A stretch of 64,000 bases of DNA. Source: Acrocarpospora phusangensis. Its GTDB lineage: Bacteria > Actinomycetota > Actinomycetes > Streptosporangiales > Streptosporangiaceae. Shown one piece after another: positions 46,801 through 64,000 of the stretch (within the stretch, counting starts at the first letter, position 1; every line of letters starts with the position of its first letter). The stretch is taken from NCBI RefSeq assembly GCF_016862995.1, contig NZ_BOOA01000043.1, positions 1 through 64,000 of the forward strand, read 5' to 3'. The position numbers were made by a program, and so were the translations under genes. A model generated the notes under the pieces. The model saw only the letters and a list, made by a program, of their open reading frames with translations. It did not search any database and had not been told where the DNA came from.

Positions 46801-49254
46801 GAGGTCGAGACCGGCCAGGCATCCCCGTTCGCCGCGTCGCTGCTCTTCAACTACGTCGGCGCGTTCATGTACGAAGGGGACGCGCCACTAGCCGAACGAC
46901 GTGCGCAGGCTTTGGCGCTGGACACGTCGTTGCTCGCCGAACTGCTCGGCCAGGCGGATCTGCGCGAGCTGCTCGACCCCGACGTGATCGCGGAGGCTGA
47001 GCGCGAGCTGGCGCGGCTGGATCGCCCGCTCCGGGACGTGGAGGATCTCGCCGACCTGCTCCGCTCGCACGGTCCGCTGCTGACCGAGGACGTGTCGATC
47101 CGGGAAGGCGACCCGGCCTGGCTGGTCGATCTGGAACGGACTCGCCGGGCGATCCGCGTCCGGGTGGCAGGCCAGGAACAGTGGGCGGCGATCGAGGACG
47201 CCTGGCGACTCAGGGACGCCCTGGGCGCGCCGCTTCCTGTCGGTGTGCCACTGGAGTTCCTGGATCCGCCCGACACATCCGTCCGTGGGGAACGATCGTC
47301 AGGGCCCGACCCCATAGGCGATCTCGTCGCCCGGCACGCCTGCACCCGCGGTCCCTTCGACGCCGGTACGGCCGCCGCCCGCTTCGGCGTCGGCATCGCC
47401 GTGATCAACGACGCCCTCCGCCGGCTGGCCGCGTCAGGACGGGTGGTGACCGGCGAGTTCCGCCCCGGCGGACGCGGCGAGGAATGGTGCGACTCCGGCG
47501 TACTCCGCCTCCTCCGGCGCCGATCGCTGGCCCGCCTCCGCAAGGAGGTGGAGCCGGTCCCGCCCGAGGTCCTGGCGGCGTTCCTGCCGCAATGGCATGG
47601 GATCAGTGCCCAACTGTTCGACGCCTCGGATGGCCGGGACGCCGGTCGGGGCTCAGCACCCCCATATGGGCCGGAAGGCCGTGGAGCCCTTCCAGGCCGA
47701 AGCCCCGCGGATGTCTATGGGTCAGAAGATCGAAGCGGCCGGGGACTCGCGGATGCGTACGGGCCGGGAAGTCAAGGCAGTCGGGGGCCCACGGACACGT
47801 ACGGGCCGGGCAGTCGAGGTGGCCGAGGTCCGGCGGATGCGTACGGGCCGGGAAGTCAAGGCAGTCGGGGGCCCACGGACACGTATGGGCCGGGGAGTCG
47901 AGGCGGCCGAGGGCCGGCGGATGCGTACGGGCAGGAGGGGCGGGGGCTCTTCCAGGGGGGCCGGGGGTCGATGCAGGCGATGGACGCCCTGGTTCACGCC
48001 ATCGAGCGGCTGCAAGGGGCGGCGGTTCCGGGTTCGGCGCTGGAGACGCTGGTGTTGCCGGGGCGGGTTCCGGGTTATTCGCCTGCGCTGCTGGATGAGC
48101 TGACGGCGTCGGGTGAGGTGATCTGGGCCGGGCAGGGGTCGTTGCCCGGCGGGGACGGGTGGGTCTCGCTGTATTTCGCGGACACCGCGCCGTTGCTGCT
48201 GCCGGAGCCTGCGGAGATCAGCATGACGCCGCTGCATGACCTCGTGCTGGACGTGCTCGGGGGCGGTGGGGCGCTGTTCTTCCGCGATCTGTCCAATCGG
48301 GTGACGTCTGGCCTGGGAACGGTGCCGGATGACCAGACGCTGGCGGCGGCGTTGTGGGACCTGGTCTGGTCGGGACGGGTGACCGGGGACACGCTCGCGC
48401 CGCTGCGGGCGACGTTGGGGACGGGGAGGCCCGCGCATCGGCCGGCGACCACGCGGCGACGGCGGGCGGTGCTGCCGACGCGTACGGGGCCGCCGACGGT
48501 CGGCGGGCGGTGGTGGTTGTTGCCGGAACCCGCCCGGGACGGGACCCAGCGGGCGCATGCCCAGGCCGAAGTGCTGCTGGAACGTCACGGTGTGCTGACC
48601 AGGGGCGGGGTCACCTCCGAACGGCTACCGGGCGGGTTCTCCGCCGTGTATCAGGTGCTCCGGGCGTTCGAGGAGAGCGGCCGATGCCGACGCGGCTACT
48701 TCGTCGAAGGTCTGGGCGGGGCGCAGTTCGCCAGCCCGGGCGCGGTCGATCGAATGCGGTCCATGGCTCCGTCGGGTCCGCCCGAAGCCGAGGCCGTGAA
48801 TGCGGGTGCGGGTCTGTCGCGTGGGGCGTCGCCGCTTGACGCGTTGTGGCAGGCCGGCGTTCAGGCACACGGCTCTGGGCGAGCGCCCCGGCGGACGGTG
48901 GTGCTGGCTGCCGCTGATCCGGCCAATCCTTACGGAGCGGCGCTGCCTTGGCCGGATCGGGCGGAGGATGTCACGCATCGTCCCGGGCGCAAGGCGGGGG
49001 CGCTGGTGGTCATGGTGGATGGGCGGCTTGTCCTTTATGTGGAGCGTGGGGGCAAGACGTTGCTCTCGTTCGGGGCCGAGGAGGATCTCCGTCCTGCGGT
49101 GACCGCGCTGGCAACCGCCGTACGGGAAGGGGCGTTGGGCAAGCTGACCGTGGAACGCGCGGACGGCACGGCCATCACGTCATCGCCGCTGGCCGCCGCC
49201 CTGGAAGCGGCAGGGTTCCATCCCACGCCTCGAGGGTTGCGCATCCGCGGATAA
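43825..49254 (+). CDS. lhr: Lhr-type ATP-dependent DNA helicase, unusually long
   Basis: The 1,809-residue superfamily 2 helicase exceeds the roughly 1,500 residues usual for actinobacterial Lhr. Motif I is VVAPTGSGKTLAAF (near residue 45), motif II VIIDEVHAV, motif III IGLSATVRPV and motif VI LQRIGRAGHQ; the Lhr winged-helix and beta-barrel core follows. Two disordered insertions explain the extra length. The first lies between IIFANSRRLSERLCTRLNEL and VVRAHHGSVSKEERSQIEEA (about 180 residues, with P-E-G-S-S repeats). The second is in the C-terminal region and carries a 14-residue tandem repeat. Lhr is a 3'-to-5' helicase in DNA repair. The ATG follows AGGGGGA. Confidence 0.92.
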   Translation: MSGGALARFDPVTREWFTGAFAVPTAAQEGAWTSIARGDNTLVVAPTGSGKTLAAFLWSLDRLAAEQMSPVALDTPPKKDASKRGGKPKRLCRVLYVSPLKALAVDVERNLRAPLTGIKQTARRLGLPVPDISVAIRSGDTSAEDRRRFAANPADILITTPESLFLILTSQAREALRGVDTVIIDEVHAVAPTKRGAHLALSLERLDALLPRPAQRIGLSATVRPVSEVAAFLGGSRPATIVQPPSDKVIDIDVIVPVEDMTEVSGMPPEGHGEPPQRSIWPHVEEHLLDLIESHHSTIIFANSRRLSERLCTRLNELAWQRRTAPASLTAEADDPDLAGSWNIADGSNTTRSSAAGGETGGRRAAEGLEASDDPDVPGGFGGESAADGEAGQEPVHWSTGFAELLGRGREEAGRPKGASGEPEGSSEMPSNPPEGSTAQSRSSEGSGAQPQSSEGSGMLSDSSGRPAGSSRTPAEMMAMAGASKGAVPEVVRAHHGSVSKEERSQIEEALKSGRLPAVVATSSLELGIDMGAVDLVACVAAPPSVASGLQRIGRAGHQVGAVSRGVIFPKYRGDLVQTAVVAERMKSGQIEEMRYPRNPLDVLAQQIVAMTAVDEWTVDELEELVKRAAPYATLPRSALEATLDMLAGRYPSEEFAELRPRLVWDRVTGTLQARPGAQRLAVTNGGTIPDRGLFGVFLVGEKSSRVGELDEEMVYESRAGDVFVLGATSWRIEEITADRVLVSPAPGQPGKLPFWHGDALGRPAELGRAIGAFVRELSAGGTPADERVRAAGLDAFASANLLAYLKEQRDATGYVPDDRTLLVERFHDELGDWRVVIHSPYGARVHAPWALALGRRLRERYGMDVQAVHSDDGIVLRVPDTLDDAPSDLAAFDADEIEQIVVEELGGSALFASRFRECAGRALLLPRRMPGKRSPLWQQRQRAAQLLGAASKYASFPVVLETMRECLQDVFDVPGLVQLMRDIAARRVRVVEVETGQASPFAASLLFNYVGAFMYEGDAPLAERRAQALALDTSLLAELLGQADLRELLDPDVIAEAERELARLDRPLRDVEDLADLLRSHGPLLTEDVSIREGDPAWLVDLERTRRAIRVRVAGQEQWAAIEDAWRLRDALGAPLPVGVPLEFLDPPDTSVRGERSSGPDPIGDLVARHACTRGPFDAGTAAARFGVGIAVINDALRRLAASGRVVTGEFRPGGRGEEWCDSGVLRLLRRRSLARLRKEVEPVPPEVLAAFLPQWHGISAQLFDASDGRDAGRGSAPPYGPEGRGALPGRSPADVYGSEDRSGRGLADAYGPGSQGSRGPTDTYGPGSRGGRGPADAYGPGSQGSRGPTDTYGPGSRGGRGPADAYGQEGRGLFQGGRGSMQAMDALVHAIERLQGAAVPGSALETLVLPGRVPGYSPALLDELTASGEVIWAGQGSLPGGDGWVSLYFADTAPLLLPEPAEISMTPLHDLVLDVLGGGGALFFRDLSNRVTSGLGTVPDDQTLAAALWDLVWSGRVTGDTLAPLRATLGTGRPAHRPATTRRRRAVLPTRTGPPTVGGRWWLLPEPARDGTQRAHAQAEVLLERHGVLTRGGVTSERLPGGFSAVYQVLRAFEESGRCRRGYFVEGLGGAQFASPGAVDRMRSMAPSGPPEAEAVNAGAGLSRGASPLDALWQAGVQAHGSGRAPRRTVVLAAADPANPYGAALPWPDRAEDVTHRPGRKAGALVVMVDGRLVLYVERGGKTLLSFGAEEDLRPAVTALATAVREGALGKLTVERADGTAITSSPLAAALEAAGFHPTPRGLRIRG
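47766..47933 (+). repeat. 42-bp in-frame tandem repeat inside lhr
   Basis: Four units begin at 47766, 47808, 47850 and 47892. They alternate between two versions (GSQGSRGPTDTYGP and GSRGGRGPADAYGP), so there is an 84-bp higher-order repeat whose two copies are nearly identical in DNA. Degenerate units extend upstream to about 47640. Confidence 0.92.
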
Positions 49255-52223: not shown

Positions 52224-53591
52224 TCAGTCTGGTAGGCGCTCCAATTCGGCGATGGTGTTCTTGAGGGCGCGGAGAAAGAGAGCGGCTTCGCGGCCGTTGA
52301 TCAGGCGGTGGTCGTAGGCGAGGCCAATGTTGGCGACCTTCTTGGTGGTCAGGGTTCCGTCGTTCAGGGTGAGGACGGGCTGAGGAGTTGTGATGGCGAG
52401 GGCGCAGGCGTGGCCGGGAAAGATGAACGGGATCGCCAGGGAGACGTCCGCGTCGTGGTGGAGGGTGACGGCGATGTTGGCGTCGGCGAGGTCGGATTCG
52501 CGGAAGTCACCGGTCGTCGAAGCCAGGCGGTATTCCATCAGCCGGGTGGCGACGTCCTTGAGCGAACGAGACGCCGCATCGTGAATCACCGGCACGTAGA
52601 GACCTTCGCCGGTGTCGACCGTGACCCCGACATTCGGACTTCTGGCCAGTCGCGCTGTTCTGTCGTCCGTGAGCGTGGCGAAGAACATCGGAAACTCGTC
52701 ATGAAGCCGGGCCACCGCCAGAACGAACAGCTCCGCCAACCCGACAGGACGACGAACCTCCCGGGTCATCCGGGCCGCGACCTCAAGCGTGCCGTCCATA
52801 TCCATCGCCATCACGGTGTACGCCGCCGGAATAGTCGCATGCGACACCTGTACGGCTCTCGCCACCGCCCGCTGCACCCTCGGCAGCTCATACGTGGCTG
52901 CGGACGCTCTCTCCACCAGACGTTCGACGTCAGCACGTCTGATCACACTCAGCCCCAGCGAGTTCACCCGCTCGGCGGGAATCCCCAGTTCATCAAGGAG
53001 CGCCTGCGCCGGAGCAGTGATCAGCGGCGAGCGCCCGCCCGCAGCGACAGGCGAGGCAACTCCGCCGCGAGCGTTCGGGCCAGTCACAGCGGCCGCAGCA
53101 TCTCCAGTCGCGGCGTAACGAGTGGAGGAACCCGAAGCAGCAGTTTGCGCAGAGTCAGGCGGCCGAGGCTCAGCAGGAGTTGTGGTGTTCAAGGCGGCGG
53201 GTGTTCCGGAAGAAGTCGTGCCTGGGGGCCGGCCATGGGCGTCCGCCTTGCTCAGGGAGTTCGTCGCCCCGGGCGGTTCGTAAGACGTCGGAACATGCGC
53301 CAGCGGTTCATTCGAAGCCCGCTCGGCGTCCAAGGGAATGGAAAGCTCGGGCGGTTCGGGTGATGTGGTGAGGTGGGCCAGTCGTTGGCCTGGGGCGCAG
53401 TCGGCGTTGAGGGGGATGGACTGCCAGAGGTAGCCGTCGGATTCCGCGGCTATCTCCTCGGCGGCTTTGGAGGTTTCGATTACCGCGATCGGGTCGCCGG
53501 ACTTCACGGGGGTACCGTTTTCGACGATCCACTCGACCAGGATGTAGGTCGCGTCGTTGTTGTTGAGTTTGGGGACTCTGAGTTCAATCAT
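52224..53591 (-). CDS. 2-oxo acid dehydrogenase E2 acyltransferase
   Basis: The 455-residue protein has an N-terminal lipoyl domain with the lipoylated Lys in VIETSKAAEEIAAESDGYLW. A disordered linker contains a 26-residue duplication (SIPLNADCAPGQRLAH and SIPLDAERASNEPLAH). The peripheral subunit-binding domain (ITAPAQALLDELGIPAERVN) and the catalytic domain follow. The active site reads YDHRLINGREAAL, where the usual D-H-R-x-x-D-G has Asn in place of Asp. It starts at an ATG overlapping the E1beta stop region. Placed in an NRPS operon, it probably supplies an acyl group to the assembly line rather than to central metabolism (inference). Confidence 0.88.
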   Translation of the reverse strand: MIELRVPKLNNNDATYILVEWIVENGTPVKSGDPIAVIETSKAAEEIAAESDGYLWQSIPLNADCAPGQRLAHLTTSPEPPELSIPLDAERASNEPLAHVPTSYEPPGATNSLSKADAHGRPPGTTSSGTPAALNTTTPAEPRPPDSAQTAASGSSTRYAATGDAAAAVTGPNARGGVASPVAAGGRSPLITAPAQALLDELGIPAERVNSLGLSVIRRADVERLVERASAATYELPRVQRAVARAVQVSHATIPAAYTVMAMDMDGTLEVAARMTREVRRPVGLAELFVLAVARLHDEFPMFFATLTDDRTARLARSPNVGVTVDTGEGLYVPVIHDAASRSLKDVATRLMEYRLASTTGDFRESDLADANIAVTLHHDADVSLAIPFIFPGHACALAITTPQPVLTLNDGTLTTKKVANIGLAYDHRLINGREAALFLRALKNTIAELERLPD

Positions 53592-54693
53592 GGAGGGCCT
53601 CCAGGATGGCGGCGTAGATGGTGGACTCCTGGAGGAGAACTCGTTGTTCCAGGTGGGCGGCGGTGGGGATGACACTGTCGGCGGAATGCACCAGGGCGAC
53701 CGGGCGGGAAAGGTTCTTCCACATGTGCTGGTGGATTCGGTGCGCTACCTCGGCTCCCCATGTCCCGCCGGCGGTGCTCTCCTCGGCGATGACGATGGCT
53801 TTCGCGTTCCGGAGCGTGGACAACAGGGGTTCGACGTCGAACGGGTAGAGGCGAGAGGGAACGAGCAGACAGCAGGTCACCTCACGCTCGACGAACATGC
53901 GCCGCATCGCCGCCAGAGCCCGATCCGCGACCCCGCCAGGCGCGATGATCACACAGTCGGACTCGGCGGGATCGTCGATAAAGACCCGAACGACTTCGTC
54001 ACGAACGACCCCAACGTCACGGAAGCCTCGAACGCCGTAACCGTCAGATTTGTCACACTCGCCACCGCCCACGTTTTCATCGCCAGAAATGGCGTCACCG
54101 CTCGACAGGCCGTCGCCACCGGACAAGGCGTCGCGGCTGAACAGGGGATCGAGGTCGTGCATGCGGCGCGTGTACAGCACCTTGTCCTCGAAGAAGACGC
54201 ACGGCTGCGCGGAGGCGAGCATCGACGCCAGGACCGTGCGGTTGTCGTGCAGCGCCGACATCTCGTACACCGCAAGGCCGGGTACGCCGATGAAGTGCTT
54301 CTGGAGGCTCTGGCTGTGGGTGGGGCCGTAGCCGCGTCCGCCGCCGGTGGGACAGCGGACGATGAGGCGCATCGGCACGCGGGAGCCGTACATGGAGACG
54401 GATTTGGCGGCGAAGTTGGTGATCTGGTCGAAGGCGAGGGCGACGAAATCGCTGAACATGATCTCGACGATGGCGGTGTCGCCGCAGAGGGCGAGTCCGG
54501 CGGCGAGGCCGGACAGGCCGGATTCGCTGATGGGGGTGCCGAGGACGCGGTCGGGGAACCTCGTGGACAGGCCGCGGGTGACCTTGAAGGCGCCGCCGTA
54601 GGGGTCGAGGACGTCTTCGCCGATCACGTACGCCTTCGGGTCGCGTTCGAGCAGGTCGCCCAGGGCGGCGTTGAGGTTCTCCCCTACCCGCAC
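53584..54693 (-). CDS. 2-oxo acid dehydrogenase E1 beta subunit
   Basis: The roughly 369-residue protein begins VRVGENLNAALGDLLERDPK and has YVIGEDVLDPYGGAFKVTRG, GTPISESGLSGLAAGLALCG and VRCPTGGGRGYGPTHSQS, the TPP-binding and dimer segments of E1beta. A low-complexity insert (GGDGLSSGDAISGDENVGGG) lies in the middle, making it longer than usual. The C-terminal domain has IAPGGVADRALAAMRR and VIAEESTAGGTWGAEVAHRI. The GTG at 54693 overlaps the E1alpha end by 10 bp; another GTG lies three codons upstream. Confidence 0.85.
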   Translation of the reverse strand: MRVGENLNAALGDLLERDPKAYVIGEDVLDPYGGAFKVTRGLSTRFPDRVLGTPISESGLSGLAAGLALCGDTAIVEIMFSDFVALAFDQITNFAAKSVSMYGSRVPMRLIVRCPTGGGRGYGPTHSQSLQKHFIGVPGLAVYEMSALHDNRTVLASMLASAQPCVFFEDKVLYTRRMHDLDPLFSRDALSGGDGLSSGDAISGDENVGGGECDKSDGYGVRGFRDVGVVRDEVVRVFIDDPAESDCVIIAPGGVADRALAAMRRMFVEREVTCCLLVPSRLYPFDVEPLLSTLRNAKAIVIAEESTAGGTWGAEVAHRIHQHMWKNLSRPVALVHSADSVIPTAAHLEQRVLLQESTIYAAILEALHD

Positions 54694-55601
54694 GGGGACC
54701 ACCGGGAGAGCGGACGGGCGGCGACATCGCGGACGATTCCCGCGACTCGGGCGCGGGCTGCCTCGTCGGCGGTGGCGAAGACGAGCGGGTCGGGCTCGGC
54801 GGTGCGGTACCAGTCGGGCAGGGCGCGGACCTGGTCGGGCGGGCGGGTGTCGTCGCCCTTGCTGTGCGGGCCGAGGCGGTGGGTGACGAATTCGACCACG
54901 AGGGGGTGCGAGTCGGTGCGTACCGACTGGAGGAGGGGGGTGAGGTCGGCGCGGATGTCGGTGAGGTCGAGGGAGGTGACGCCGTGGTGGCGGATGCCGA
55001 AGCCGTGGGCGCGGTCGCGGATCGTGCCGGCGAGCTGGCGGGTGGTCGGGGTGGATTGGGCGATCCCGTTGTTCTCGACGATCACCAGGAGGGGAAGCCG
55101 CCACAGCGCGGCCATGTTGAGCGCCTCGTAGACCGAACCTTCGCCCCACGTGCCGTCGCCGATGTAGACGCAGGCCAGCGCGCCGGAGCCGCGTAAGTGC
55201 AGGGCCGCGCCCGCCGCGACGGGAAGGCTCTCTCCCTGTACGCCGGTGGAAAGATACCGATCGCGAAGAATGTGCTGGCTGCCCCCGACACCCGCGCAGA
55301 CGGCGCCCTCCCGGCCCATGATCTCGGCGAGGAGCCCTTCCGGATCCTCATATCGGGCGAGATAGTGCCCGTGGCCGCGATGGTTGCTGAACACGTAGTC
55401 GTCGGCCTGGAGCAGCGGCGCGAGAGCGACGGGCACGTACTCCTGGCCGAGGCAGGTGTGCGTGGTCCCGTTCAGCTCGCCGCGCGCGAACAGGTCGAGC
55501 AGGGCCAGCTCGAAATGCCGGATCAGCAGGAGCAGATCCAGGTCATGCCGGGCGATACCCGCTTTCGGCGTCGAATCAGTGCACAGGTCGGTAGCCGTCA
55601 T
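54684..55601 (-). CDS. 2-oxo acid dehydrogenase E1 alpha subunit
   Basis: The 305-residue protein has the E1alpha features THTCLGQEYVPVALAPLL, FSNHRGHGHYLARYEDPEGL, STGVQGESLPVAAGAALHLR and the TPP motif GDGTWGEGSVYEALNMAALW ending in V-E-N-N. It should decarboxylate a 2-oxo acid, or cleave a ketose as in related antibiotic pathways, and pass the two-electron acyl unit to lipoate on E2. The phosphorylation loops of mitochondrial enzymes are absent, as expected. It begins 57 bp after the condensation–carrier gene. Confidence 0.88.
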   Translation of the reverse strand: MTATDLCTDSTPKAGIARHDLDLLLLIRHFELALLDLFARGELNGTTHTCLGQEYVPVALAPLLQADDYVFSNHRGHGHYLARYEDPEGLLAEIMGREGAVCAGVGGSQHILRDRYLSTGVQGESLPVAAGAALHLRGSGALACVYIGDGTWGEGSVYEALNMAALWRLPLLVIVENNGIAQSTPTTRQLAGTIRDRAHGFGIRHHGVTSLDLTDIRADLTPLLQSVRTDSHPLVVEFVTHRLGPHSKGDDTRPPDQVRALPDWYRTAEPDPLVFATADEAARARVAGIVRDVAARPLSRWSPCG

Positions 55602-55658: not shown

Positions 55659-57155
55659 TCACGTCGTGCTGACCGCTGGTTCGGAGTCGCGGACGGCGGT
55701 GACGACGCCGGCGATGGTCGGGGTGTCGAAGAAGACGTCGAGGGACACCTCGATGCCGAGGCGTTTGCGCATGCGGGCGATGATCTGGGTGATCGTCAGG
55801 GAGTGCCCGCCCAGGTCGAACAGGTCCTCGTCGTCGCCGATCTCGTCGATGCCGAGCACTTCCTGCCAGATCTCGCGGATGGCGTCGGCGAGGTCGGGCG
55901 TGGCGTCGTTTTCACTCCGGAGGTCAAGAGACACAGAGCTATCCGGATTTTTCATGATGGTGAGAAGGTCCTCCGCTATTCGAGCGACTTCCGGGATCTC
56001 GTCGGGCGAGCCGGAATCTGAGCCGTATTGCATGGTCACGAAGAGGCCGTCCGGGGTGTCGACGGCCTGGAAGTGCAGCAGGCTGCGGACTGCGTGATTG
56101 AAGACCGCCCAGTCCACGCGGGTCCGCAGACCGGCGAAGCCGGGTTCCTCCCGCCGTTTCCGGTAACTCACCGATACGGGAGCGAGCGCCGTTCGCGGCC
56201 GAAGTCCCCGTACGGCACGGGCGACGGGCACCGCGCGGAACCGATAGATCTCCCGCAACTCCCCCCGAAGCCAGCGCGCCAGATCGACGACGGACATGTC
56301 CGGAGACGGCCGCGAAGCCACGGGAAGCTCGTTGACGAACAACCCGATGTTGTCCCGTACCGCTTGAGTACGCGTGGACACATCCACCGCGCACACCGGC
56401 TCCACGTTCCCGTACGAGTACAGCAACGCCTGCACACAAGCCAGAAACAACTCGAATCGCGAAATATCCGAAATGTCGGGTAGTTCGGCGCGGAACGTGT
56501 ACGCCCGGCCGAAGGCCGCTCCACGCCTCGGCGCGCCCGTCCCGACCTCGGGCAGCCCAGAACGCTGCTCGGGAAGTCCCCGGACGATCACGTCCCCCGG
56601 CTCGCGCCACCGCGACCGCCAGAATTCCCGCGCCGCGCCCAGCTCGTCACCCACCCGAACCCGCTCATCGGCCGCGAACCCCGCGTACGGCATCGTCAGC
56701 CGCGGCAACGTCCGCCCGTCATAGAAGGCCGCCAGATCCCGGACGAACACATCCTTCGACTCTCCGTCGAACACCAGATGGTGGGCCACGAAGACCAGGA
56801 CGTGCCGCTCCGGCGCGAGCCGTACGAGGGTGAAGCGCGCCAGCGGCCCTCGCTCCACATCGAACGGACGAAGCGTCTCCTCCAGCACAAGAGCATCCAG
56901 ATCATCAGATGTCGTGACACGGATCTCCGGATGCGTGCCCCACACCTCCACCGGCAGGCCGTCGTCGTCCTCGACGATCGCGCTGGACAGCACCGGATGC
57001 CGCCGGATCACCGCCTGACACGCCTGAATGAGCGCACACGCGTCCAGCGCCCCATCCATCCTGATCAGGACGGGCATGTGATACGCCGACCCCGCCCGCC
57101 CCATCCGCTCGGTGATCCACATCCCCACCTGCGCGAATGACGCCTCCGCACTCAT
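55659..57155 (-). CDS. Free-standing NRPS condensation–carrier didomain protein
   Basis: The 498-residue protein is a condensation domain (about 1-405) followed by a peptidyl carrier domain (about 415-490). The catalytic motif is VAHHLVFDGESKD (H-H-x-x-x-D-G intact) and the phosphopantetheine site is the Ser in LFDLGGHSLTITQI. It has no adenylation domain, so its carrier must be loaded in trans, plausibly by the AMP-forming ligase encoded just upstream, whose stop overlaps this start (ATGA). The carrier could also receive an acyl group from the E1/E2 proteins downstream. Confidence 0.9.
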   Translation of the reverse strand: MSAEASFAQVGMWITERMGRAGSAYHMPVLIRMDGALDACALIQACQAVIRRHPVLSSAIVEDDDGLPVEVWGTHPEIRVTTSDDLDALVLEETLRPFDVERGPLARFTLVRLAPERHVLVFVAHHLVFDGESKDVFVRDLAAFYDGRTLPRLTMPYAGFAADERVRVGDELGAAREFWRSRWREPGDVIVRGLPEQRSGLPEVGTGAPRRGAAFGRAYTFRAELPDISDISRFELFLACVQALLYSYGNVEPVCAVDVSTRTQAVRDNIGLFVNELPVASRPSPDMSVVDLARWLRGELREIYRFRAVPVARAVRGLRPRTALAPVSVSYRKRREEPGFAGLRTRVDWAVFNHAVRSLLHFQAVDTPDGLFVTMQYGSDSGSPDEIPEVARIAEDLLTIMKNPDSSVSLDLRSENDATPDLADAIREIWQEVLGIDEIGDDEDLFDLGGHSLTITQIIARMRKRLGIEVSLDVFFDTPTIAGVVTAVRDSEPAVSTT

Positions 57156-58549
57156 GCCAGCGCCCGCAGCGCACGTTTGTCCACTTTGCCGCCCCGGTTG
57201 CGCGGCAGCGCCTCCACCGTCAGCAGCCGCGCGGGAATCTCGTGCCCGGCCAGGCGCTCCCCCAGGAAGGCCCGCATCTCCTCCGGCGCGACCGAGTCCC
57301 GCACCACCAGCGCCGCCACCACGGACGTGCCCAGAACGGCATGCGGCACCCCGAAAGCGGCGGCCTCCTTCACCAGCGGATGCGCGTGCAGCGCCTCCTC
57401 GATCTTCAAAGTCGAGATCTTGTACGCCCCCGACTTGACCACGTCGCTCTCCCGGTCGACCAGGTAGAGGTATCCCTCCTCGTCGAGGTAGCCGAGATCC
57501 CCCATGCGTACCCATCCGTCCCGGAACACCGGGGACGCGGGGTCGCCGAGGTACGCGCGGGGCGCGGCCGGGGACCGCATCCACACCTCGCCGGTCTCGC
57601 CCGCCGGGACCGGTGCGCCGTCCGCCGAGGTGACCCGCACGCCTCCCCCGGCGGCCGGCCGCCCCACCGAACCGGGCCGCTCCGGATCGAACAGCATGAT
57701 CGTCTGAGCGGGCGCCGCTTCGGTGGAGGTGTAGTAGTTCGTGATCATCGCCTTCGGGAACAGCCCGGTGAGCTCGGACGCGACCGCCGACGGCAGTGGT
57801 GCGGCGGCCGATCCGAGCAGCAGCACGCTCTCCATCGGCTCGACCCCGGCATTGATCAGCTCGATCGCCATCGCCGGAACCAGGAACACCGACCCCGCCC
57901 GATATTTCCGGATCAATCCGGCGAAGCGTCCGGGCGTGAAGCGGGGGGACGTCACCACGGCGGGATGGGCCGACAGGGCGTTGACCAGCATCATCTGGCC
58001 CGCGTTGGTTCCGATCGGGAAGGCGTGGACGAGGTGTTTGGAGTGGCGGAACGGCTGGTGGCGGGGCTCGGGCCGTACTCCGTAGGCGAGGTTGGCGTGG
58101 GTGGCGGTGACGCCTTTGGCGGTGCCGGTCGTGCCCGAGGTGTAGAGGATCTGGGCGGGATCGCCAGGCCGAGAGATCACCGGCGGAGGGGTCGTGTCCG
58201 TACCGGACGCCCATTCTTCGCCGGGGCGCAGGATGGCCGCCATCGAGCAGTGCACGGCCAGTTGTCCGACCTCTGCGTCCGGGAGGCGGTCCGACAGCGG
58301 CACCGCGACCGCCCCGGCGCGGAGCACGCCCATGAAGGCCACCGCGTAGTCGATCCACCCCGAGGCGGGAAATATCAGCCCGATCCGGTCGGCGGGCGCG
58401 ATCCCCTGGCCGACCAGCTTGTTCGCGACCGCGTTCGCCCTCGCGTCCCAGTCCCGGTACGCCAGCTCTCCGACGCCGTCCACGATCATGGCGACGCCGT
58501 CGGGATCGGCGGCGGCCCGTGCCGCCAGCAGCTCCGGAAGCGTCATCAA
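57152..58549 (-). CDS. AMP-forming acyl/aryl ligase (ANL superfamily)
   Basis: The 465-residue adenylating enzyme has the P-loop-like ILYTSGTTGTAKGVTATHAN, the ITNYYTSTEAAPAQTIMLF segment in the place of Y-G-x-T-E, RMGDLGYLDEEGYLYLVDRE and the catalytic C-terminal Lys in LPRNRGGKVDKRAL. It is shorter than most NRPS adenylation domains and has no carrier. It probably activates a carboxylic or amino acid for the carrier protein encoded next in the operon. The true substrate cannot be read from the sequence with confidence. It is the first gene of the minus-strand operon. Confidence 0.88.
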   Translation of the reverse strand: MMTLPELLAARAAADPDGVAMIVDGVGELAYRDWDARANAVANKLVGQGIAPADRIGLIFPASGWIDYAVAFMGVLRAGAVAVPLSDRLPDAEVGQLAVHCSMAAILRPGEEWASGTDTTPPPVISRPGDPAQILYTSGTTGTAKGVTATHANLAYGVRPEPRHQPFRHSKHLVHAFPIGTNAGQMMLVNALSAHPAVVTSPRFTPGRFAGLIRKYRAGSVFLVPAMAIELINAGVEPMESVLLLGSAAAPLPSAVASELTGLFPKAMITNYYTSTEAAPAQTIMLFDPERPGSVGRPAAGGGVRVTSADGAPVPAGETGEVWMRSPAAPRAYLGDPASPVFRDGWVRMGDLGYLDEEGYLYLVDRESDVVKSGAYKISTLKIEEALHAHPLVKEAAAFGVPHAVLGTSVVAALVVRDSVAPEEMRAFLGERLAGHEIPARLLTVEALPRNRGGKVDKRALRALA

Positions 58550-58610: not shown

Positions 58611-58639
58611 CCTTATTGAAAACAATCTTTCCAGTTAGC
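58611..58639 (+). promoter_or_regulatory. 29-bp direct repeat, copy 1, in divergent promoter region
   Basis: This begins CCTTATTG and contains AATCTTTCCAGTTA. It matches 58763-58791 at 25 of 29 positions. It is closer to the ligase gene start. It may be the binding site of a cluster-specific regulator or a duplicated promoter. Confidence 0.6.
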
Positions 58640-58762
58640 GACGCGGCCAGTGTTGCATGTGGCATATGTCAGCCACAAGGGGGACGGCTCGCGGCAAGCC
58701 CTACCAGCAAAGGGATTGTTGGGGTTGTGGCGGACGCGGTGCCGTGCCAGACTGACGCCGTA

Positions 58763-58791
58763 CCTAATTGCAAAGAATCTTTCCAGTTAAC
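58763..58791 (+). promoter_or_regulatory. 29-bp direct repeat, copy 2
   Basis: This begins CCTAATTG and contains AATCTTTCCAGTTA. It lies 152 bp from copy 1 in the same orientation and about 60 bp before the NRPS start. The region is AT-rich for this genome. Confidence 0.6.
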
Positions 58792-58852
58792 CGGCCGAGC
58801 TCCACGCGGCTCGGGCCCTTCGTGCTGCATTCGTCCGATCAATGAAGGAAAG

Positions 58853-61800
58853 ATGTTTGCCGTCACGGCGTCCGGCCAGATCCCGCTCTCGCTTGGCCAG
58901 GAGCGTCTCTGGTTCCTGCACGAGCTGACCCCCGACGACGCCTCCTACAACATCTGCGTGACCGAGCGCCTGCTCGGCCCTCTCGACACGGACGCCCTGG
59001 AACGCGCGCTGCGCGCGGTGGTCCTGCGGCACGACATCCTGCGTACGCGTTATCCGGCGGTGGACGGGCGGCCCTTCCAGGTCGTCGGCGAGACCGTGCC
59101 CGCGCTCGAACGGCTGAGCGCCCCGACGCCGGAGCACGCGCGGGCGATGGTGGGCGAGCTCACCAACCTGCCCTTCGACCTCGCGACCGGACCGGTTCTG
59201 CGGGCCGCGCTCATCGCGGCCGGGCCGGAGGAGCACGTCCTGGTCATCGTCCTGCACCACATCGCCGGGGACGGCTGGTCGCTGGGGCTGCTCTTCGAGG
59301 AGATCTCCACGCTCTACGCGGGTGGCGAGCTTCCCGTGCTTCCTCTTCAGTACGCCGAGCACGCCAGGCGGCGGCAGGATCAGCCGGCCGACACGTCGTA
59401 CTGGCGGGAGCGGCTGGCGGGGGCGGCGACGCTCGATCTTCCGGCGGATCGGCCGCGCCCGAGGGTCCGTACCTCGAAGGGGGACTGTGTCGCGCGGCGG
59501 CTTCCCGCGGAGCTGGTCGCGGAGGCCGGCCTGCTCGCGAGGCGCGAACGGGTGACGCTGTTCATGCTGCTGCTGGCCGCCTTCCAGACGCAGCTGTCGC
59601 GCTACACGGGCGCGGAGGACTTCTGCGTCGGTACGCCCGTCTCGGCACGCGACAACGAGGACGTCGAGAAGCTCATCGGCTTCTTCCTCAACACGGTCGT
59701 GCTCCGGGCCGATCTCGCCGGTGATCCGTCCTTCCGCGACCTGCTCAGAAGAACCCGGCGCACCGCGATCGACGCGTTCGTGCACGCCGACACCCCGTTC
59801 GACCAGCTGGTCACCGAACTCGGCGTCGCCCGCGACCTCAGCCGCACCCCGGTCTTCCAGACCCAGTTCAGCTTCCGGAACGAGCGCAACGCCGGGCTCG
59901 CCCTCCCCGGGATCACGGCCGAGCCCTACGATCCCGGCTTCCACCAGGCGAAGTTCGACCTCTCGCTGGAGATCAGCCCGAGCGGCGAGGCGTTCTTCGT
60001 CTACAGCGCCGACCTGTTCGACCGCGAGACCGTCGAACGATTCGCCGCCAACTTCGAAACCCTGCTGCGATCGATCGTCGCCGACCCCGACCGGCCCGTC
60101 TCCGAACTCGACCTGCTCACCCAGGACGAAACCGACCTCCTGCTCACGTGGAGTCGACCGGCGTCGCCTCCGCCCCCCGTCCCGGCGCGAACCCTGGCCG
60201 AACTCGTCGAAACGACCGCCCGCCGCGTCCCGAAGACCACCGCCATCCGGTACGGCGACGCCTCCCTCACCTACGCTGACCTGAACACACGCGCGGACGC
60301 CCTGGCCGCACGGTTGCGCGCCCTCGGGGTCGGACCGGACGTGCGGGTGGCGATCTGCCAGGAGCAGTCGGTCGAGATCGCGGTGTCCATCGTCGCCGTC
60401 ATGAAAGCGGGCGGCGCCTACGTCCCGCTCGACCCGGACCAACCGGAAGAGCGCCGCGCGTACATGCTGGCGGACTCGGGCGCCCTGGTCGTGATCACGG
60501 ATTCCGGCCCGGCTCCGCTGAGCCCCGCCATTGAAACGCGGCCGGGTAATGCCGCTCAAGGCGACCCCGACCGGTCCGGAGAAGTCACGCCCCGCCGATC
60601 CGCGCACGGAGCTGGTCCCCGCGACGGCGAGGAGACCAGGCTGAACAGACCCGGAAAGTCCAACCCGCCAGCCGATCCCGGCGACGCCGAGGAGACGTTC
60701 CCCGGCGAACCGGTAAGCGGAGAGGCGACGGCGGACAGCCTCGCGTATGTGATCTACACGTCGGGGTCGACCGGGAGGCCGAAAGGGGTCGCTGTTCAGC
60801 ATCGGCAGGTGCTGAACTATCTGGCCGACGTGCGGGAGCGGTTCGACGTCGGGGAGGGCGCGAGTTTCGCGCTGTTGCAGTCGCTCGCGTTCGACTTCGG
60901 CATGACGGTGTTCTACCTGTCGCTGATGACCGGCGGGACGCTGCGGCTGCTGCCGTCGAAGATCTCCGGGGCTGAGCTGGCCGGGCACATGGGCGGGATC
61001 GACTACCTGAAGATGACGCCGTCTCACCTGGCGGCGCTCGCCGCCGACGCGGACGTGCGGAGCCTGCTGCCGCGGCGGCTGCTGATCCTCGGCGGCGAGG
61101 GGTCGAGCTGGGAGTGGACGCGGACGCTGGCCGGGTACGGGCAGGTGGTCAACCATTACGGGCCGACCGAGGCCACGGTGGGCGTCGCCACGTACCGGGT
61201 CTCGGCGGAGGTGGAGCCGGCGGGGCCGATCACGCCGATCGGGCGGCCGTTGGGGCACGCGGAGCTGTTCGTGCTGGACCGGCTCGGGAAGCCGGTGCCG
61301 GTCGGGGTGGCGGGTGAGCTGTGCATCGGGGGCGATCGGCTGGCGCGGGGATATCTCGGGCGTCCGGACCTGACCGCCGAGAAGTTCGTCGAATCCCCGT
61401 ACGGGCGGATTTATCGCACAGGGGACCTCGCTCGATGGCTGCCCACCGGAGATCTGGAGTTTCTCGGGCGTCGCGATCTTCAGGTGAAGATTCGCGGGTA
61501 CCGGGTGGAGCTCGGGGAGATCGACGAGCATCTGCGCCATCTTCCGGCCATCGCCCATGGCGTCGTGGACGCACGCGACGGCGAGCTGGTCGCCTACCTG
61601 GTCGCGGCTCCCGACGTGCAGCGCCCGAGCGTGGGTGAGTTGCGCCGGGAGCTGGCGGGCAGGCTGCCGGAGTACATGGTCCCGACCCGCTATGTCTGGC
61701 TTGCCGACCTTCCGCTGAAGGGCCACGGCAAGGTGGACCGCGCCGCGCTTCCTGCGCCCGAGGACACGCGGCCCGACCAGGACGTGCCGTTCGAGCCGCC

Positions 61801-64000
61801 CGCCGACGCGATCGAGGAGATCGTCGCGGCGGCCTGGTGCGAGGCGCTGGGGCTCCGGCGGGTGGGCGTGCTGGACGACTTCTTCGACCTGGGCGGGCAT
61901 TCGCTCCTCGCGGCGAGGATCATCGCCCGGCTCCGCCGGGAGCTGCCCGAGGGCAGCAGTCCGGTGGGATTGATGGACCTGTTCCAGCATCCGACGGTCC
62001 GCGAACTGGCCGGCGTGGCCAGAGCGGCCACGGTCGTGCGAGGGTTGCTGTACCGGCTGACGAAACCGGGCGCAAGGGGACCGGTCGCGCAGGGACCGGA
62101 CGGCCGGTCGGGCACGCGGAACTTGGTGTGTGTGCCGTACGGGGGCGGCAGTGCCGTGGTGTATCAGCCGCTGGCCGACGCGTTGCCGGAGGGGTGGGGG
62201 CTGTATTCGGTAGCCGTACCCGGGCATGATCTTGGGCTGGCCGAGGAGCCGCAGCCGCTGGCGGAGGTGGCCGCGCGCTGCGCCGACGAGATCATCGCGA
62301 CCGTCCAGGGACGGCTCACCCTGTACGGCCACTGCGGCGTCGGCGGCGCGCTCACCATCGAGATCGCCCGCCGGCTGGAGGCTCAAGGCCGGGCGATCGA
62401 CGCCATCTACCTGGGCGGGATCTTCCCGTTCGCGCGCCCGACCAAGGGGTTGATGGGCCGCTGGGCCAAGCTCGCCCGTCTCGAACGCCTGCGCAGCGAC
62501 CGAGGGCAGATCAACTGGCTGACCGCCCTCGGCGCCGACCTCTCCGGCCTCGACGACGAGCAGAAGACGTTCGTCATCCGCAACATGCGCCACGACGCCC
62601 GCGCGGCCGAGGACTACTTCACCGCCCTCATGGACTCCGGCACGGCCAAGCTCTCCGCCCCGATCACCTCCGTCGTCGGCGAGTACGACCCCGCCACCGA
62701 CTACTACGAGGAGCGCTACCGCGAATGGGAGTTCATCACCGATGACACCCACCTCGCCGTCCTCGACGAAGGCGGCCACTATTTCCTGAAATATCGCCCC
62801 GAAGAACTGGCCGCGATCGTCACCCGGCCGGTACCGGGAGTGACTGCTGGCGGCGAGGAGAACGGCCGGGACCCGCTCGGCACAGCTGGCCACTCGGCGA
62901 GCGGCGACAGCGTGGCCGTCGGCATTCCGGACAATGTCTCAGCGGCACAAGCGGTCAGCCCCGAAGAGAGCGTCGGCCCGGCATCTGGCGGCGGCGACAC
63001 GGCCGCGCTGCCGAAGACGGCCGGAAACCCGGCGAGCCGGAGGACGCGCGGCGGCCCGGAGCCGACCGTGCGCCGCTTCCTCGCCGTCGCCTCGGGCCAG
63101 ATGATCTGCCTGGTCGGGTCCACCCTGACCGAGTTCGCGCTTCCTCTCTGGGTCTACCTCCAGAACCGGTCGATGACCCAGCTGGCCATCCTGCAAGTCC
63201 TCGCCGTCATCCCCGGCATCCTCGTCGCCCCCCTCGCCGGCGCCCTCGTCGACCGCTCCAGCCGCCGCACCGTCATGATCGCCGGAAACGCGGCCGCGCT
63301 CGCCGTCCAGGCCGCCACCGCCGTGCTCATCTGGACCGCCGCCTTCCAGGTCTGGCACCTGTACGTCCTGCTCCCCTGCCTCTCCGTCGCCCTCACCTGC
63401 CAGCGCCTGGCCTTCACCTCGGCCGTGCCGCAGCTGGTGCCCAAGCGCTACCTCGGCCATGCGAACGGCGTCGCCCAGATGACCCTCGGCGTCGCCCAGT
63501 TCATCGCGCCCCTGGCCGCGGTCGGCCTGCTGTCGACGGTGGGCCTGAAGGGCATCCTCATCCTGGACGTGGCCGGCCACCTCGCCACGCTGGCCGTGCT
63601 CGCCGTGGTCGCCTTCCCCGCCACGATGGCGCATCGCCGCAGGGAGCCGGTGCTGCGCGAGATCGCCGAAGGGTTCCGCCTGTCGATCGGCGACCGCGCG
63701 TTCCGCGCCATGGTGGTCTTCTTCGCGCTGCTCTCGCTCGGCCTGTCCCCGGTCTTCCTGATGTACTCCCCGCTCGTGCTCTCCTTCGGCACGCTCGCCG
63801 ACGCGGGCGCGATCGCCCTGACGGCGGGGGCGGGCGCGGTGGCGGGCGGCCTGACCATGGGCCTGTGGGGCGGCCCGGCCCGGCGCCGCATGCGCGGCAT
63901 GCTGCTGGCCACGCTGCTCATCGCCGCCTCCTGCCTGGTGGTCGGCGCGAGCGAGGCGCTGCCGCTGATCGGGCTCGGCGCGTTCGGCGTCTCCTTCGGG
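58853..64000 (+). CDS. NRPS C–A–T–TE fused to an MFS transporter (runs off window end)
   Basis: At least 1,716 codons are open without a stop. Condensation domain about 1-430 (H-H-x-x-x-D-G in VLHHIAGDGWSLGLL, His135). Adenylation domain about 455-965 (YVIYTSGSTGRPKG, YRTGDLARW, catalytic Lys in GHGKVDRAAL); its specificity residues read D-F-T-K-I-G-H-V-G-K, close to the aspartate code. Carrier domain about 980-1050, with Ser1017 in LGGHSLLAARI. Thioesterase about 1085-1325, with GHCGVGG (Cys1161 in the nucleophile place), VVGEYDP and LDEGGHYFL. After an 80-residue Gly/Pro/Ser linker the frame continues as a major facilitator transporter (from about 1403), with LTEFALPLWVYLQNR, AGALVDRSSRRTVM and several membrane helices. 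I verified the frame across each junction. The ATG follows GAAGGAAAG. Confidence 0.92.
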   Translation, partial: MFAVTASGQIPLSLGQERLWFLHELTPDDASYNICVTERLLGPLDTDALERALRAVVLRHDILRTRYPAVDGRPFQVVGETVPALERLSAPTPEHARAMVGELTNLPFDLATGPVLRAALIAAGPEEHVLVIVLHHIAGDGWSLGLLFEEISTLYAGGELPVLPLQYAEHARRRQDQPADTSYWRERLAGAATLDLPADRPRPRVRTSKGDCVARRLPAELVAEAGLLARRERVTLFMLLLAAFQTQLSRYTGAEDFCVGTPVSARDNEDVEKLIGFFLNTVVLRADLAGDPSFRDLLRRTRRTAIDAFVHADTPFDQLVTELGVARDLSRTPVFQTQFSFRNERNAGLALPGITAEPYDPGFHQAKFDLSLEISPSGEAFFVYSADLFDRETVERFAANFETLLRSIVADPDRPVSELDLLTQDETDLLLTWSRPASPPPPVPARTLAELVETTARRVPKTTAIRYGDASLTYADLNTRADALAARLRALGVGPDVRVAICQEQSVEIAVSIVAVMKAGGAYVPLDPDQPEERRAYMLADSGALVVITDSGPAPLSPAIETRPGNAAQGDPDRSGEVTPRRSAHGAGPRDGEETRLNRPGKSNPPADPGDAEETFPGEPVSGEATADSLAYVIYTSGSTGRPKGVAVQHRQVLNYLADVRERFDVGEGASFALLQSLAFDFGMTVFYLSLMTGGTLRLLPSKISGAELAGHMGGIDYLKMTPSHLAALAADADVRSLLPRRLLILGGEGSSWEWTRTLAGYGQVVNHYGPTEATVGVATYRVSAEVEPAGPITPIGRPLGHAELFVLDRLGKPVPVGVAGELCIGGDRLARGYLGRPDLTAEKFVESPYGRIYRTGDLARWLPTGDLEFLGRRDLQVKIRGYRVELGEIDEHLRHLPAIAHGVVDARDGELVAYLVAAPDVQRPSVGELRRELAGRLPEYMVPTRYVWLADLPLKGHGKVDRAALPAPEDTRPDQDVPFEPPADAIEEIVAAAWCEALGLRRVGVLDDFFDLGGHSLLAARIIARLRRELPEGSSPVGLMDLFQHPTVRELAGVARAATVVRGLLYRLTKPGARGPVAQGPDGRSGTRNLVCVPYGGGSAVVYQPLADALPEGWGLYSVAVPGHDLGLAEEPQPLAEVAARCADEIIATVQGRLTLYGHCGVGGALTIEIARRLEAQGRAIDAIYLGGIFPFARPTKGLMGRWAKLARLERLRSDRGQINWLTALGADLSGLDDEQKTFVIRNMRHDARAAEDYFTALMDSGTAKLSAPITSVVGEYDPATDYYEERYREWEFITDDTHLAVLDEGGHYFLKYRPEELAAIVTRPVPGVTAGGEENGRDPLGTAGHSASGDSVAVGIPDNVSAAQAVSPEESVGPASGGGDTAALPKTAGNPASRRTRGGPEPTVRRFLAVASGQMICLVGSTLTEFALPLWVYLQNRSMTQLAILQVLAVIPGILVAPLAGALVDRSSRRTVMIAGNAAALAVQAATAVLIWTAAFQVWHLYVLLPCLSVALTCQRLAFTSAVPQLVPKRYLGHANGVAQMTLGVAQFIAPLAAVGLLSTVGLKGILILDVAGHLATLAVLAVVAFPATMAHRRREPVLREIAEGFRLSIGDRAFRAMVVFFALLSLGLSPVFLMYSPLVLSFGTLADAGAIALTAGAGAVAGGLTMGLWGGPARRRMRGMLLATLLIAASCLVVGASEALPLIGLGAFGVSFG

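Follow-up and report, generated by a model that had tools for sequence, protein, structure and literature searches.

A nonribosomal peptide synthetase termination module joined in one frame to a cysteine-type thioesterase and a predicted MFS exporter recurs among actinomycetes

Can peptide synthesis, release and export be combined in a single polypeptide? The question is raised by a gene at the end of the 64,000-base stretch analysed here (the window), the leading part of an 80,947-bp contig (G000:C43) in the 9.1 Mb genome of Acrocarpospora phusangensis. An open frame runs from 58616 to 64000 without a stop within the window; from the ATG at 58853 it closes at 64343-64345, past the window end, and encodes a product of 1,830 aa. 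Its parts are as follows.

58853..64000, extending to contig position 64345, plus strand: C-A-T-TE-MFS fusion gene (frame and Pfam)
58874..60145, plus strand: Condensation (C) domain (PF00668, 323 bits; HHxxxDG present as LHHIAGDG, motif by eye)
60209..61732, plus strand: adenylation (A) domain including its C-terminal subdomain (PF00501, 257 bits; code DFTKIGHVG(K))
61823..62014, plus strand: carrier (T) domain with GGHSL (PF00550, 50 bits)
62120..62818, plus strand: thioesterase (TE), assigned to the ObiF1/SulM type (PF00975, 66 bits; phmmer; residue alignment)
62819..63103, plus strand: low-complexity linker from the TE to the first transmembrane segment
63104..64000, plus strand: MFS exporter domain (12 predicted helices, the last ~2.5 of them beyond the window, ending at 64216)

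Condensation, AMP-binding, PP-binding, Thioesterase and MFS_1 (75 bits) follow each other in this order and all score above their Pfam cut-offs, while AMP-binding_C scores slightly below its own. The four domains of an NRPS termination module (C-A-T-TE) are thus all present and ordered, with HHIAGDG, GGHSL and YGHC recognized by eye. Third-position GC is 0.87-0.96 across the domains and 0.81 in the TE-MFS linker, indicating that coding phase is maintained across the linker. Stretches that are repeat-rich or of low complexity occur as linker expansions in several long proteins of the window, namely at 47730-47932 (84-base repeats in a gene that by eye is helicase-like), at about 60510-60735 (an insert inside the A domain, by eye) and at 62819-63067 (between TE and MFS, by eye).

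By hydropathy analysis, the MFS part contains 12 segments; two further, weak segments fall within the soluble C and A domains and are regarded as normal core elements. The predicted helices number 12, with the N- and C-termini inside, as DHA3 exporters require, and we take the part to be of the DHA3 type. Its loops alternate in a strong positive-inside pattern (27 K+R on one side vs. 3 on the other), so both pump termini are predicted to be cytosolic, on the same side that the synthetase must occupy. In a crude hydropathy count over 88 fusions (80 named loci, six from the own genome and two plasmid loci, all described below), 8-12 segments were found in each. An AlphaFold model of the relative L077, built with 46 alignment rows (mean pLDDT 77, pTM 0.64), shows an alpha/beta hydrolase joined by a disordered linker to ~12 long helices in a bundle, and the helical part matched MFS transporters in Foldseek. 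The phmmer search of solved structures with the MFS part returned none at E<=0.001, and the model TIGR00900 ('H+ antiporter protein') matched at 1.4e-49 with 169 bits vs. a cut-off of 320. Within four genes of the fusion, no other gene with at least five membrane segments was seen in 66 of the 80 named loci by a crude scan in which some loci stop at contig edges, which agrees with export through the fused pump.

Together, these results bear out the initial annotation, which had read one C-A-T-TE-MFS chain with codon phase kept through the linker: the frame is free of stops and, once extended past 64000, holds 12 predicted helices, within the 10-14 anticipated in the same frame. The reading of the MFS part as a drug-exporter type also stood, as both MFS_1 and MFS_3 exceed their Pfam cut-offs, and the suggested anchoring of the assembly line at the membrane fits the positive-inside topology prediction.

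Whether the architecture is shared by relatives was assayed at several taxonomic depths. With a TE-MFS alignment of five own-genome copies as query, all five genomes of the genus were positive and yielded 28 fusions (6, 6, 5, 6 and 5), the own genome having six; for 2 of the 28, the TE and the MFS came as separate rows within one frame. Outside fusions, TE matches reached at most 59 bits, vs. 386 and 437 bits for the two fusion TEs scored apart; two stand-alone MFS proteins scored 278 and 276 bits, ahead of the next at 114, and no split TE/MFS pair was seen in these five genomes. The six own-genome fusions are on contigs C12, C34, C43, C58, C69 and C125, in differing gene settings, the C12 paralogue having no adjoining NRPS gene in the stretch taken.

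Further, 393 stretches in GTDB genomes encode a relative. The TE motif and the MFS part stand in one stop-free frame in 80/80 of the named loci, which are the best 80 of the 393 and, as best matches to a fused query, are biased towards fusions, several genomes giving more than one; for L147 the TE segment, absent from the BLAST report, was found in a second analysis. The nearest named relatives, from three Acrocarpospora species, are 80-83% identical over TE-MFS. Most named loci belong to Streptosporangiaceae genera, and others to Streptomyces, Embleya, Peterkaempfera, Micromonospora, Catellatospora, Actinoplanes and Pseudonocardia. In the plasmid collection, the two loci examined, from Streptomyces clavuligerus and Embleya and chosen out of five records that cover at least 80%, both carry the fusion.

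Less biased checks were provided by the five genus genomes and by a TE-only search of 61 genomes of the order, with at most 45 candidates scored per genome. The latter gave 65 matches in 19 genomes, which fall into three score bands. The top band holds 58 TEs (338-431 bits), all in frames of at least 1,679 aa, as judged by frame length; the middle band holds six (201-226 bits; frames of 1,850-3,373 aa), and the four loci fetched from it were all fused to an MFS 34-37% identical to that of the window. The single TE of the low band (125 bits; frame of 1,369 aa), L171, and the TEs of L172 and L173 from the wider phylum have no fused MFS. In a search of 297 genomes of the order, 127, from 28 of 62 genera, matched at E<=1e-60, with three candidates scored per genome and some matches possibly partial. 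Across the phylum, 396 genomes scanned with two candidates scored per genome gave the fusion at E<=1e-100 in the own genome only, and a stand-alone MFS in two others; the TE-only search of 246 phylum genomes (11 scored per genome) gave two unfused TEs besides the own six. These two scans speak against a phylum-wide feature, though named loci outside the order, in Streptomyces, Embleya, Micromonospora, Catellatospora, Actinoplanes and Pseudonocardia, do have the fusion. The 28 genus fusions and the 80/80 named loci (best of 393) indicate that the architecture, sought in relatives as the initial annotation had advised, is recurrent and more than chance, forming a class; the finding that homologues are fused removes the possibility, raised there, that TE and MFS are always separate genes elsewhere. 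An assembly or frameshift artefact is ruled out by the six in-genome copies and the 80 named loci, which come from many assemblies.

The catalytic residues of the thioesterase were placed by alignment with ObiF1.

62333..62335, plus strand: TE nucleophile Cys (equivalent of ObiF1 Cys1146)
62687..62689, plus strand: TE catalytic Asp at position II (equivalent of ObiF1 Asp1254)
62777..62779, plus strand: TE catalytic His (equivalent of ObiF1 His1284)

When solved structures were searched by phmmer for relatives of the L077 TE, which shares 88% identity with the window TE, the nearest were ObiF1 (9.4e-28), the thioesterase 6vap (2.5e-16) and SulM (1e-13); among the fold matches of the L077 TE model, ObiF1 ranked first and SulM eighth, with no other TE among the 50 matches listed. 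When the 88 fused TEs were aligned with ObiF1 and SulM, the nucleophile was Cys in 85 and Ser in three (L093, L095 and L112), and the catalytic His and the Asp at position II were each present in 88/88. Position I is Gly in 65 and Ala in 23, never Asp, and the equivalent of Arg1190 is found in 67. A Tyr/Arg/Trp stretch after beta7, [YH]xxR[YF]xxW, a pattern defined in this analysis and at the sequence level only, occurs in 87/88 as well as in ObiF1 and SulM, and is absent from 8/8 other unfused TEs (6vap, L001, L003, L171-L173, L178 and L179). In the L077 model a helix lies at this stretch (residues 199-208), its start being of low confidence. The four fusions of a second clade (clade B) have the Cys and the Asp at position II in 4/4, the stretch in 3/4 and the Arg in 0/4.

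These features compare closely with ObiF1, the obafluorin NRPS (C-A-PCP-TE-MLP; PDB 6n8e), which likewise has a terminal C-A-T-TE module, a Cys-His-Asp triad whose Asp occupies position II while position I holds Gly, and an extra domain C-terminal to the TE, and whose TE is the closest solved one by sequence and fold (~30% identity in the Foldseek match). ObiF1 differs in that its extra domain is a small MbtH-like protein and its A domain loads a beta-hydroxy amino acid. Excerpts of the ObiF1 paper describe a Cys nucleophile, a catalytic Asp at position II in the loop that follows beta7 and a Gly where that Asp usually stands, and report that loss of the Arg lowered activity about tenfold and that the Cys-to-Ser mutant gave hydrolysed acid only (PMC6668435). 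The TE of SulM, the sulfazecin monobactam NRPS (PDB 8w2c), has in common with the fusions the Cys nucleophile, the Asp at position II and the Tyr/Arg/Trp stretch; according to excerpts of its description, the ObiF1 and SulM structures share a composite helix after beta7 (PMC11298585). ObiF1 closes the beta-lactone of obafluorin and SulM the beta-lactam of sulfazecin. By these alignments and the model, the window TE is of the ObiF1/SulM cysteine type, and an ordinary serine thioesterase is ruled out.

In the TE tree, the fused clades A and B group together (93/90, below the tree tool's threshold for firm support) near ObiF1, SulM, L171-L173 and type II TEs, the order among these being without firm support, and the branches leading to SulM and ObiF1 are long. 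Type II TEs also carry the triad with Asp at position II (6vap, O_L001). L171, from genome G017 of the same family, has an unfused TE 38% identical to the window TE with a GHC nucleophile, and differs in having no MFS in frame and no Tyr/Arg/Trp stretch; at L171 36-5199 the Cys-TE NRPS is followed, 2 bases on, by two genes that by eye encode AzlC/AzlD-like amino acid exporters. At L173 5337-11459, an unfused Ser TE relative stands with SbnB- and SbnA-like genes (by eye), which we take to produce diaminopropionate, on which SulM closes its beta-lactam.

A SulM-like monobactam synthase was considered and rejected. SulM closes its beta-lactam on diaminopropionate after sulfonation and has Gln-Cys-Asn, vs. 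His-Cys-Gly in the fusion, whose A domain has an Asp-like code and not one for diaminopropionate; no sulfotransferase match was found among the 10 neighbouring proteins scanned.

The residue loaded by the last A domain was read from the aligned codes. DFTKxGHxG(K), which we take to be Asp-like, occurs in 66/88 fusions including that of the window (DFTKIGHVG(K)), and DVWHxSLxD(K), by the same assumption Ser-like, in 17/88; the remaining five codes are DTEDIGT[IV]I (3), DLWNMSMIW (1) and DLPKVAEVG (1). Five of the own-genome paralogues are Asp-type, and that on C69 has DLPKVAEVG. The three DTEDIGT[IV]I codes belong to exactly the three loci with a Ser nucleophile, L093, L095 and L112. Since the same loci are odd in both respects, nucleophile and residue shift together, which hints, at the sequence level, at a release chemistry matched to the loaded residue. 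In the Ser-type group, an N-acyl-serine beta-lactone would result if the side-chain hydroxyl attacked. Asp lacks the beta-hydroxyl that a beta-lactone needs, and no hydroxylase was recognized among the scanned cassette genes. Beta-lactone formation by the window's Asp-like module is doubtful, and for the Asp majority an anhydride or hydrolysis is a possible alternative.

Upstream, on the opposite strand, the fusion adjoins a gene cassette in which each assignment is backed by Pfam and synteny.

57152..58546, minus strand: acyl-CoA ligase-like adenylating enzyme (PF00501, 189 bits)
55659..57128, minus strand: separate C-T protein (PF00668, 138 bits; PF00550, 73 bits)
54684..55601, minus strand: 2-oxoacid dehydrogenase E1 alpha (PF00676, 139 bits)
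53584..54702, minus strand: 2-oxoacid dehydrogenase E1 beta (PF02779, 85 bits)
52224..53675, minus strand: E2 acyltransferase with a lipoyl-like N-terminus by eye (PF00198, 118 bits on 52224-52865)

Downstream come a carrier protein, a lone C protein and, past the window at G000:C43 65824-67695, a protein whose PF20254 domain (242 bits) resembles the N,N-dimethylformamidase beta subunit; this protein ends the cassette and has relatives in 16 of the 80 named loci. E1 alpha, the ligase, the carrier and the lone C are retained beside the fusion in 10 of the 15 nearest named loci (L077-L091), from Acrocarpospora, Microtetraspora, Herbidospora and one Nonomuraea; L090 keeps the ligase and the C-T only, while in L079, L087, L088 and L091 neither the cassette nor other NRPS genes stand in the stretch, and beyond these 15 the cassette parts are reshuffled. 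Neighbouring genes were called by a simple script within at most 10 kb on each side, so edges and absences are approximate. Across the 80 named loci, with an identity floor applied, E1 alpha adjoins 29/59 Asp-type vs. 1/17 Ser-type fusions. E1 alpha, E1 beta and E2 are present at 52224-55601 and in the orthologous loci, where no E3 was recognized. Perhaps the dehydrogenase genes supply an acyl starter. Detoxin and rimosamide clusters contain a PKS part; none was recognized here, and a link to them was rejected.

The likely origin of the fusion was suggested by stand-alone relatives. In Trichormus variabilis 0441 and Nostoc sp. MS1 plasmids, MFS proteins 30-35% identical to that of the fusion are encoded directly downstream of NRPS genes, 14 and 32 bp behind them, and these NRPS genes end in a TE-like tail (by eye); the arrangement differs in having two genes, and a Ser TE (GWSMGG) on another TE branch. 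In the window, the head of the MFS part carries a start-like codon.

63068..63070, plus strand: start-like codon GTG, preceded by a GGAG stretch

A start-type codon stands at this place in 70/88 fusions (ATG in 64, GTG in 6), as is expected if an adjoining exporter gene was joined on; the codon is probably, to judge from the sequence, the fossil start of a once separate exporter gene. Fused clade A forms one group in both the TE and the MFS trees (98/98 and 100/100). Clades A and B together reach 51/77 in the MFS tree, again below the tool's threshold for firm support, and the trees are compatible with a single fusion event. Distance correlations were highest for C-MFS (0.89), followed by C-TE (0.80), A-TE (0.78), TE-MFS (0.69), C-A (0.68) and A-MFS (0.57). 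The C-MFS value indicates that the two chain ends are co-inherited. TE distances track A more than MFS, which fits a residue-tuned release step, and the TE-MFS value, being lower than A-TE and C-TE, speaks against a specially tight TE-MFS pair.

We propose that the protein is a termination module that doubles as the exporter of its product, which would be released by the TE and then taken up by the chain's own 12-helix pump, a reading whose chances we put slightly above even. In the C-A-T part an Asp-like residue would be coupled to the acyl or peptidyl group arriving from upstream, and the carrier would hand the chain to the ObiF1/SulM-type Cys thioesterase; the TE would release a small acyl-peptide, possibly cyclised and reactive, which the MFS domain of the same chain, its N-terminus cytosolic, would carry out. 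The substrate of the pump is presumably the module's own product, and its direct hand-over, as suggested by the initial annotation, is an inference. By analogy with obafluorin and sulfazecin, release would proceed by attack of a nucleophile in the bound chain and not by plain hydrolysis, and tethering may prevent a reactive product from building up in the cell. A stronger version, in which these are widespread actinomycete synthase-transporters whose Cys TE, of the strained-ring type, makes a reactive, self-toxic product released vectorially into the pump of the same chain and thereby kept from ever building up as an electrophile in the cytosol, is in our judgement unlikely.

The coupling of release and export might be looser than proposed. 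The fusion could merely fix equal amounts and a membrane location, the product diffusing freely with no direct hand-over, which is possible, if less than probable. Linkers are poorly conserved and run from about 13 to 213 aa across the fusions (~213 aa in the C12 paralogue, L014), which argues against a fixed docking geometry; the cyanobacterial relatives are a separate adjoining gene, and TE distances track A and C more than MFS. However, no split pair was seen in the five genus genomes, and the 58 closest TEs among the candidates scored in the 61 order genomes are all in frames of at least 1,679 aa. The one frame could also give two proteins, through linker proteolysis or through internal initiation at the start-like codon, in keeping with the start-type codon in 70/88 and the GGAG upstream of the window's GTG. 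Yet an SD-like stretch precedes only 9 of those 70 codons, which makes a functional start unlikely, the start codon is lost in near orthologues (ATT in L077 and L086, GTA in L083), and a fossil start accounts for the codon equally well; we consider two proteins quite improbable.

Concerning the product itself, the TE could be a plain hydrolase or of an editing type, so that a linear, non-reactive acyl-peptide acid ending in Asp is exported. This somewhat unlikely reading draws on the Asp-II triad being common to type II TEs, which branch near, on Asp being without a beta-hydroxyl, and on the lack of a hydroxylase among the scanned cassette genes, whereas the Cys nucleophile in 85/88, the [YH]xxR[YF]xxW stretch shared with ObiF1 and SulM but found in 0/8 other unfused TEs, and the purely hydrolytic outcome reported for the ObiF1 Cys-to-Ser mutant (PMC6668435) argue against it. 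Finally, what the module makes might not be cargo of the MFS part at all, if this part serves self-resistance, is a general drug pump or has degenerated. The C34 paralogue does match the Mef(B) macrolide pump model (1.1e-25, far under the cut-off), but the MFS part is conserved and co-inherited with the C domain, and the two stand-alone relatives in the plasmid collection are NRPS neighbours; this reading is very improbable.

Annotation databases probably contain the architecture already, as NCBI annotation uses product names like 'non-ribosomal peptide synthetase/MFS transporter'. Each part is known, while for the joined machine full-text searches of open-licence PMC papers directed at this architecture gave no description of an NRPS-MFS fusion, and no product was found. 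Excerpts of PMC3924187 do not describe such a fusion, those of PMC11298585 make no mention of a fused transporter for SulM, and the term 'mfs' was counted zero times in PMC11298585 and in PMC6668435.

The architecture is more important than the initial annotation saw, because it recurs in many actinomycetes and because its TE belongs to a type associated with strained rings. If the proposal is true, natural-product biosynthesis, release and export would physically be one machine, and the hand-over of a substrate to a transporter would become directly testable by comparing fused with split forms. The link between A code and nucleophile offers a handle for genome mining, and, judging by the TE type, many actinomycete genomes may encode small acyl-peptides that act covalently.
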